Below, in pieces: positions 56,579-58,724 of a DNA stretch of 62,365 bases (the stretch's first letter is position 1; each line of letters opens with the position of its first letter). A program made the position numbers and the translations under genes. The DNA lies in the NCBI RefSeq assembly GCF_001447355.1, contig NZ_JXBW01000018.1, forward strand, positions 1-62,365, in the 5' to 3' direction. This DNA is from Alicyclobacillus tolerans. Its GTDB lineage: Bacteria > Bacillota > Bacilli > Alicyclobacillales > Alicyclobacillaceae. The notes under the pieces were generated by a model. The model did not search any database. It saw nothing but the letters and a program-made list of their open reading frames with translations, and was not told where the DNA came from.

Positions 56579-58724
56579 TTGTCAGAACAAGTGTACGACG
56601 AGTCGCAAATAGAAGTCCTGGAAGGCTTGCAGGCTGTGCGAAAACGCCCTGGTATGTACATCGGATCGACCAGTGTTAAAGGCCTGCACCATCTGGTCTG
56701 GGAAATCGTCGACAACGCGGTCGACGAAGCACTGGCGGGGCGATGCACGAGAATCGTCGTCCAGGTTCACCCGGATAATAGCGTCAGTGTTATAGACAAC
56801 GGCGCCGGGTTTCCCGTCGGAATTCACGCCAAGACAGGGCGGCCGGCGGTTGAAACGGCTTTAACGGTCCTGCACGCCGGTGGGAAGTTTGGTGGTGCCG
56901 GATATAAAGTGTCAGGTGGTTTGCACGGCGTTGGTGCATCCGTTGTAAATGCTCTATCCGAATGGCTGAAGGTGGAGGTTCATCGCGATGGCAAAATCCA
57001 CGTCCAAGAATACGAGCGCGGAACTCCGCTTTATGATTTAAAAGTTGTTGGCAAGACGGATCGGACAGGCACGACGGTTACGTTCCGGCCGGACCCAGAG
57101 ATTTTTACGGAGACCACAGAGTTTTCCGCGGAGACTTTGCAAAACCGTTTGCGGGAGCTGGCGTTTTTAAACGCTGGGCTCGAAATTGTGCTCGAAGATG
57201 AACGCGAAGGTGGCAAGCGATTTGAGTACCACTACGAGGGTGGCGTAAAGGAGTTTGTCCTTTACCTGAACCATTCAAAAGACGTTCTGTTTGCTGAGCC
57301 AATTTACGTGCAGGGTGTCAAAGACGAGGTCACGGTCGAGATCGCCTTACAGTATAACGATGGCTATAGTTCCACCTTGTACTCGTTCGCAAACAACATC
57401 AACACAGGTGAAGGCGGCACGCATGAAGCGGGCTTTAAAAGTGCACTGACCCGCATTATCAACGACTATGGTCGTCGCAATAACCTCATCAAGGGCAGTG
57501 ACGGCAGTTTGACGGGTGACGACGTTCGCGAAGGGCTGACGGCGGTTGTCAGCGTTAAGGTCCCGGAACCACAATTTGAGGGACAAACAAAGACAAAGTT
57601 GGGCAATAGCGAAGTCCGCGGGATCGTGGAAAGTTTGTTTGGGGAACGCCTACAAATCTTTCTCGAAGAGAATCCGGCCGTAGCTCGGAGAATCCTCGAA
57701 AAATGCGTGCTCGCGGCCCGCGCTCGAGAAGCTGCGAAACGAGCCCGTGAACTTACTCGCAACAAGAAGATGGAAGTCACAAGCTTGCCCGGAAAGTTGA
57801 CGGACTGCGTTTCAAAGGATCCGGAAGTGTCCGAACTGTATTTGGTTGAGGGCGACTCAGCCGGCGGATCGGCAAAGGGCGGGCGAGATCCACAAACACA
57901 AGCCATCCTGCCGTTGCGAGGAAAGATTATCAATGTCGAAAAGGCCCGTTTGGACAAGGTATTGTCCAACGAGGAAATTAGGGCCATTATCACCGCGTGT
58001 GGCACAGGCATTGGCGACGAATTTGATTTGAGTAAAGCACGCTATCACAAAATCGTCATCATGACGGATGCCGATCACGACGGCAGCCAAATTCGCATTT
58101 TCAGCCGGCGGATCGGCAAAGGGCGGGCGAGATCCACAAACACAAGCCATCCTGCCGTTGCGAGGAAAGATTATCAATGTCGAAAAGGCCCGTTTGGACA
58201 AGGTATTGTCCAACGAGGAAATTAGGGCCATTATCACCGCGTGTGGCACAGGCATTGGCGACGAATTTGATTTGAGTAAAGCACGCTATCACAAAATCGT
58301 CATCATGACGGATGCCGATCACGACGGCAGCCACATTCGCATTTTGCTGCTCACATTGTTCTATCGGTTTATGCGACCGCTTATCGATGCAGGCTATATC
58401 TATATCGCGCAGCCGCCGCTTTACAAGATCGAGAAGGGCAAAGTCATTCGCTATGCATACTCGGATGCACAACTGGAGCAAGCGTTGCAAGAAATGGGCC
58501 GACAGGGCGTGAAATTGCAACGGTATAAGGGGCTCGGGGAAATGAATGCAGACCAACTCTGGGAGACGACGATGGATCCGGAGTCCCGCACCCTGCTGCA
58601 AGTTACGATGGAAGACGCCATGGACGCCGACATGATCTTCAGTACCTTAATGGGCGACAAGGTCGAACCGCGCCGGGATTTTATTGCAGAGCACGCGCGC
58701 TATGTGCGGAATCTCGACGTGTGA
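56579..58724 (+). pseudogene. gyrB: DNA gyrase subunit B broken by a 244-bp tandem duplication
   Basis: The first 500 residues are normal Gyr[44 protein letters not shown] site [26 protein letters not shown] and [22 protein letters not shown]. In the metal-binding motif [14 protein letters not shown] the frame is lost because a 244-bp unit is repeated. The true C terminus ([20 protein letters not shown] to [11 protein letters not shown]) is open in another frame from the second copy. Deleting one copy gives 633 residues, the normal size. The TTG start after GGAGGG gives the canonical N terminus. GyrB is essential, so an assembly error is far more likely than true loss. Confidence 0.93.
57857..58344. 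repeat. 244-bp direct tandem duplication inside gyrB
   Basis: Positions 57857-58100 and 58101-58344 are identical except A at 58090 versus C at 58334. The right copy gives the conserved His of DGSHIR; the left gives Gln. The mismatch is ten bases before the junction. 244 is not a multiple of three. Confidence 0.97.

Follow-up and report, generated by a model that had tools for sequence, protein, structure and literature searches.

A 244-base duplication splitting gyrB in an Alicyclobacillus draft genome is most likely an assembly artefact

Does this Alicyclobacillus strain carry a gyrB gene that is split in two, or does the split belong only to its assembly? The window, that is, the whole stretch of DNA analysed here, is the entire contig C10, 62,365 bases long. 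It belongs to a draft genome whose 55 contigs total 2,809,442 bases, with a completeness of 99.79%. Inside gyrB, Tandem Repeats Finder located two 244-base units lying head to tail (Table 1), just as an earlier inspection of the letters (hereafter the sequence-only reading) had described them. The same reading was right that a single base distinguishes the two copies, A at 58090 against C at 58334, and both translations bear out its assignment of Gln to the left copy and His to the right one in the motif DGS[Q/H]IR. The copies share an exact stretch of 233 bases. Such identity is far beyond chance, since the 62,365 bases of the window contain, on both strands, no repeated 24-mer outside its two tandem duplications. 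The 488-base two-copy stretch has a single location in the genome, according to a search of its own assembly.

Because 244 cannot be divided by 3, the duplication breaks the reading frame: the first frame continues for about 40 residues beyond the junction and then meets a stop codon, and the remainder of the gene lies in a different frame. The length of a gyrB with only one unit depends on the start codon that is chosen. The 633 residues announced by the sequence-only reading fit a TTG start at 56579, and the ATG at 56525 gives, by arithmetic, 651 residues, the same as in the closest relative described below.

Table 1. Coordinates of the duplicated units and of the reading frames that they affect. 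Positions are those of the window unless another contig and stretch are given; a private base is a site where one copy departs from the single copy of A. hesperidum DSM 12489.
Feature	Position	Strand	Remarks
Second frame of split parB-type gene	42325..42696	-	ParB_C (dimerisation domain)
parB unit, left copy	42407..42596	-	private base 42577, 19 bases before junction
First frame of split parB-type gene	42503..43366	-	ParB_N, HTH_ParB
parB unit, right copy	42597..42786	-	
First gyrB frame	56525..58225	+	ATPase, DNA_gyraseB, part of Toprim; ends with about 40 out-of-frame residues
gyrB unit, left copy	57857..58100	+	private base 58090, 10 bases before junction
Second gyrB frame	58068..58724	+	part of Toprim and C-terminal domain
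gyrB unit, right copy	58101..58344	+	matches the DSM 12489 base at 58334
gyrA	58771..61254	+	intact, 827 aa, downstream of gyrB
First C4 unit (two copies)	contig C4, L106 10280-10625		family 5 solute-binding protein
Second C4 unit (two copies)	contig C4, L106 12286-12841		LacI-type regulator
C9 unit (two copies)	contig C9, L111 1205-1689		clpC-type gene, in frame, three Clp_N stretches

The sequence-only reading had left two ways out: a fault in the assembly or the existence of a further gyrase gene. The second is not supported. When the strain's own assembly was searched for GyrB- and GyrA-type matches, one GyrB/ParE-type and one GyrA/ParC-type match were obtained, and no second gyrase or topoisomerase IV was found. 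A true loss of gyrB, with a substitute gyrase or topoisomerase IV in its place, was rejected on these grounds. Assembly error is favoured by the single copy in the sister strain, the recurrence of comparable units and the crowding of differences at the junctions, all presented below. GyrB/ParE-type matches were present in all 15 genomes searched in the genus (own genome included), one in 13 of them and two in G006 and G007, and GyrA/ParC-type matches were distributed in the same way. In these last two genomes, the second GyrB/ParE-type gene adjoins the second GyrA/ParC-type gene. Gyrase would thus seem to be the only enzyme of its type in most members of the genus; with one GyrB and one GyrA in most of them, there would be no ParE to make up for a broken gyrB. 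An open frame of 632 to 717 residues was found for 16 of the 17 GyrB-type matches of the genus, the present one alone being shortened (578 residues), and none of the 14 other genomes had a split or shortened gyrB frame.

The closest named record found, NZ_FNOJ01000018.1 of Alicyclobacillus hesperidum DSM 12489 (the sister), has a DNA identity of 96.5% to the left of the junction and 96.8% to the right. It contains the 244-base segment once, and its gyrB frame is intact, with 651 residues. The first frame of the split gene matches residues 1-526 of the DSM 12489 GyrB (522/526 identical) and the second frame matches residues 445-651 (206/207 identical); the 82 residues covered by both frames are the duplicated part. 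The Gln of the left copy is likewise at odds with relatives. His was found at this site in 79 of the 79 related loci that cover it, among the best 80 loci of a longer list (74 by a first pattern and 5 by a looser one; the remaining locus, L007, gave no match, its contig ending before the site). The 16 genus loci besides the present one, including the second-type genes of G006 and G007, also have His. As His is found in all related loci covering the site, the A at 58090 is best read as a probable contig-end error.

A second tandem duplication exists in the window, which gave two rows with Tandem Repeats Finder: a 190-base unit with one mismatch (42407-42786), in a parB-type gene that is split in its turn (Table 1). 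The sequence-only reading made no mention of it. Examination of 39 further stretches of the same genome, which together with the window form a non-random sample of 792,353 of the 2,809,442 bases (28%), gave a total of five two-copy units of 164 to 277 bases, of which four break the frame, the unit of the clpC-type gene remaining in frame. This count excludes a 51-base unit (L141, 3.6 copies) and a CRISPR-like array (contig C2, L145 17021-20000), which was listed in five overlapping rows. The array has a 66-base period, and a block of its spacers is repeated with a 198-base period (3.2 copies, 91%); this repeated block may be real or may be another assembly fault.

Units of the same 164-277-base class were absent from the 686,832 bases (39 stretches) sampled in three relatives. 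The contrast of five units against none corresponds to about 0.04, calculated by hand from the two lengths of non-random samples, and carries only moderate weight. All five units are single in DSM 12489, where both flanks align and overlap, and the four that were compared with genome G011 (gyrB, both C4 units and C9) are single there as well. In the DSM 12489 genome (G009), a 104-base unit with 2.6 copies (85%) was noted near the start of contig C8 (L128 339-606).

Both copies of each unit were then compared with the sister to locate private bases. The gyrB and parB-type units have one private base each, in the left copy (Table 1); taken alone, the position of the single gyrB base is weak evidence. 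The second C4 unit has two, in the left copy, 11 and 6 bases before the junction. For the first C4 unit, private bases lie 2, 3, 5, 6, 13 and 32 bases after the junction in the right copy, and 39, 64, 71 and 108 bases before it in the left copy (108 of 164). For the C9 unit, they lie 3, 6, 14, 21, 37, 60, 80, 159 and 160 bases after the junction in the right copy (159 and 160 of 222), and 84 and 16 bases before it in the left copy; at one further site, neither copy agrees with the sister. Over the five loci, left-private bases are thus found mostly just left of the junction and right-private bases mostly just right of it, with exceptions in C9 and in the first C4 unit.

Closeness to the junction was evaluated by Monte Carlo. 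It gave p of about 0.001 for all five loci (17 differences), about 0.002 when C9 was omitted (9 differences), and about 0.00006 for the three cleanest loci (4 differences), a subset picked after the data had been seen. These calculations omitted the C9 site where neither copy matches the sister, sites beyond the copies, and eight outer-edge differences (five in the first C4 unit and three in C9) for which the unit boundary is unsure; the latter are all right-copy bases at 14 bases or less from the junction, and would favour the artefact. Such crowding is what two contig ends, each becoming worse towards its tip, would show if set end to end. The C9 unit is the weakest case, because two of its private bases are far from the junction and the domain is naturally repeated: ClpC-type proteins usually carry two Clp_N stretches. 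This unit, in frame and with many differences between its copies, may be partly real.

From the sequence comparisons, the gyrB duplication would almost certainly be a false one, produced during assembly when overlapping contig ends were butt-joined instead of being merged. Two contig ends would each include one 244-base segment of a normal, single-copy gyrB; their overlap would have been missed, probably owing to the error at one tip (58090); and once the ends were joined, the shared stretch would appear twice and the frame would break. The living strain should then carry an ordinary, intact gyrB. We infer both the assembly or gap-filling step at which the ends were joined and the erroneous nature of the private bases.

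The contig ends that remain were compared for 28 contigs out of 55, which gave 56 ends. Several words of about 19-32 bases are shared at the tips, and exact words of 25-27 bases are common to several ends. The ends of C5, C6, C9, C14 and C19 have a common repeat (253-485 bases, 91-98%), and weaker end matches connect C15 with C3 and C7 with C8. Unmerged dovetail overlaps of 150-300 bases were not present among these 56 ends; they are not strictly defining for the artefact, as ends that have been joined are no longer visible. Short shared end words and the lack of repeated 24-mers could come from a graph assembler whose word length was about 27. A 60-kb part of the sister's contig is likewise devoid of repeated 24-mers, so this lack alone does not single out the present assembly. 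In a contig built in this way, an exact repeat of 233 bases would be expected only if it came via the reads or via a later scaffolding or gap-filling step.

Could the duplication have been present in the cells? A real tandem duplication could have arisen in the sequenced culture, in all or some cells, by slippage or by error-prone template switching leaving point changes, and be lost later by recombination between the copies. Bacteria do form tandem units of such size, error-prone repair can leave base changes near junctions, and the ends of the gyrB junction share, by eye, only 1 base. We nevertheless consider this very improbable: the duplication would disable the only GyrB found; five independent units, four of them frame-breaking, would have to be present in 28% of one genome; the differences lie on both sides of the junctions; and the sampled relatives have no such units. 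Less likely still is an origin outside the cell in the library or in chimeric reads, with no joining of contig ends involved. This would likewise yield a false unit missing from relatives, but it predicts neither that each copy's private bases gather at the junction on that copy's side, nor that the fault recurs at several places. Finally, a real split gyrase B, with two polypeptides (or a frameshifted product) sharing the Toprim domain and working together, can be practically dismissed even though both frames are open with recognisable domains (ATPase, gyraseB and Toprim; Toprim and C-terminus) and the large subunit of the phage T4 topoisomerase comes in two pieces, as the other 14 genomes of the genus have none, the Toprim motifs are whole in neither chain (the second frame lacks EGDS and the first has Gln for His), no clear ribosome-binding sequence is seen by eye before the ATG at 58068, and four other genes have the same fault.

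False duplication by the joining of contig ends resembles faults already described. Kelley and Salzberg (2010) report nearby contigs that overlap at their ends, both copies of the overlap being kept so as to imitate a recent duplication (PMC2864568); the retention of an end overlap in duplicate is what our case would have in common with theirs. There, the cause is the two haplotypes of a diploid, and alignments of more than 300 bases were required, whereas here the organism is a bacterium, the units have 164-277 bases, and errors at the ends are the likely cause. In 'homotype' false duplications, accumulated sequence errors keep one and the same sequence from being collapsed, and it then appears in two copies (PMC9516828). 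Here also, sequence errors would keep a single sequence doubled; as described in that source, these cases come from vertebrate assemblies and were judged by read depth and read k-mers. Both sources concern vertebrate genomes, and the present case is read here as a bacterial instance of the same known fault.

We conclude that the split gyrB is most likely an ordinary, easily misread assembly artefact, and not a real feature. Taken at face value, the record implies an Alicyclobacillus devoid of a working gyrB and of a working parB-type gene, both of which would be scored as pseudogenes. gyrB often serves as an identification marker, and used in this way from the present record it would give a wrong alignment. 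The completeness of the draft, high as it is, does not reveal the fault. To the gyrB case itself, the analysis adds the same fault in the parB-type gene of the window and in two or three sampled genes outside the window. A simple screen of draft genomes would consist in listing two-copy tandem units and checking against one relative whether private bases crowd the junction. By rough extrapolation, the 5 units in 0.79 Mb correspond to about 18 in 2.81 Mb, so that perhaps a dozen more are present in this assembly.
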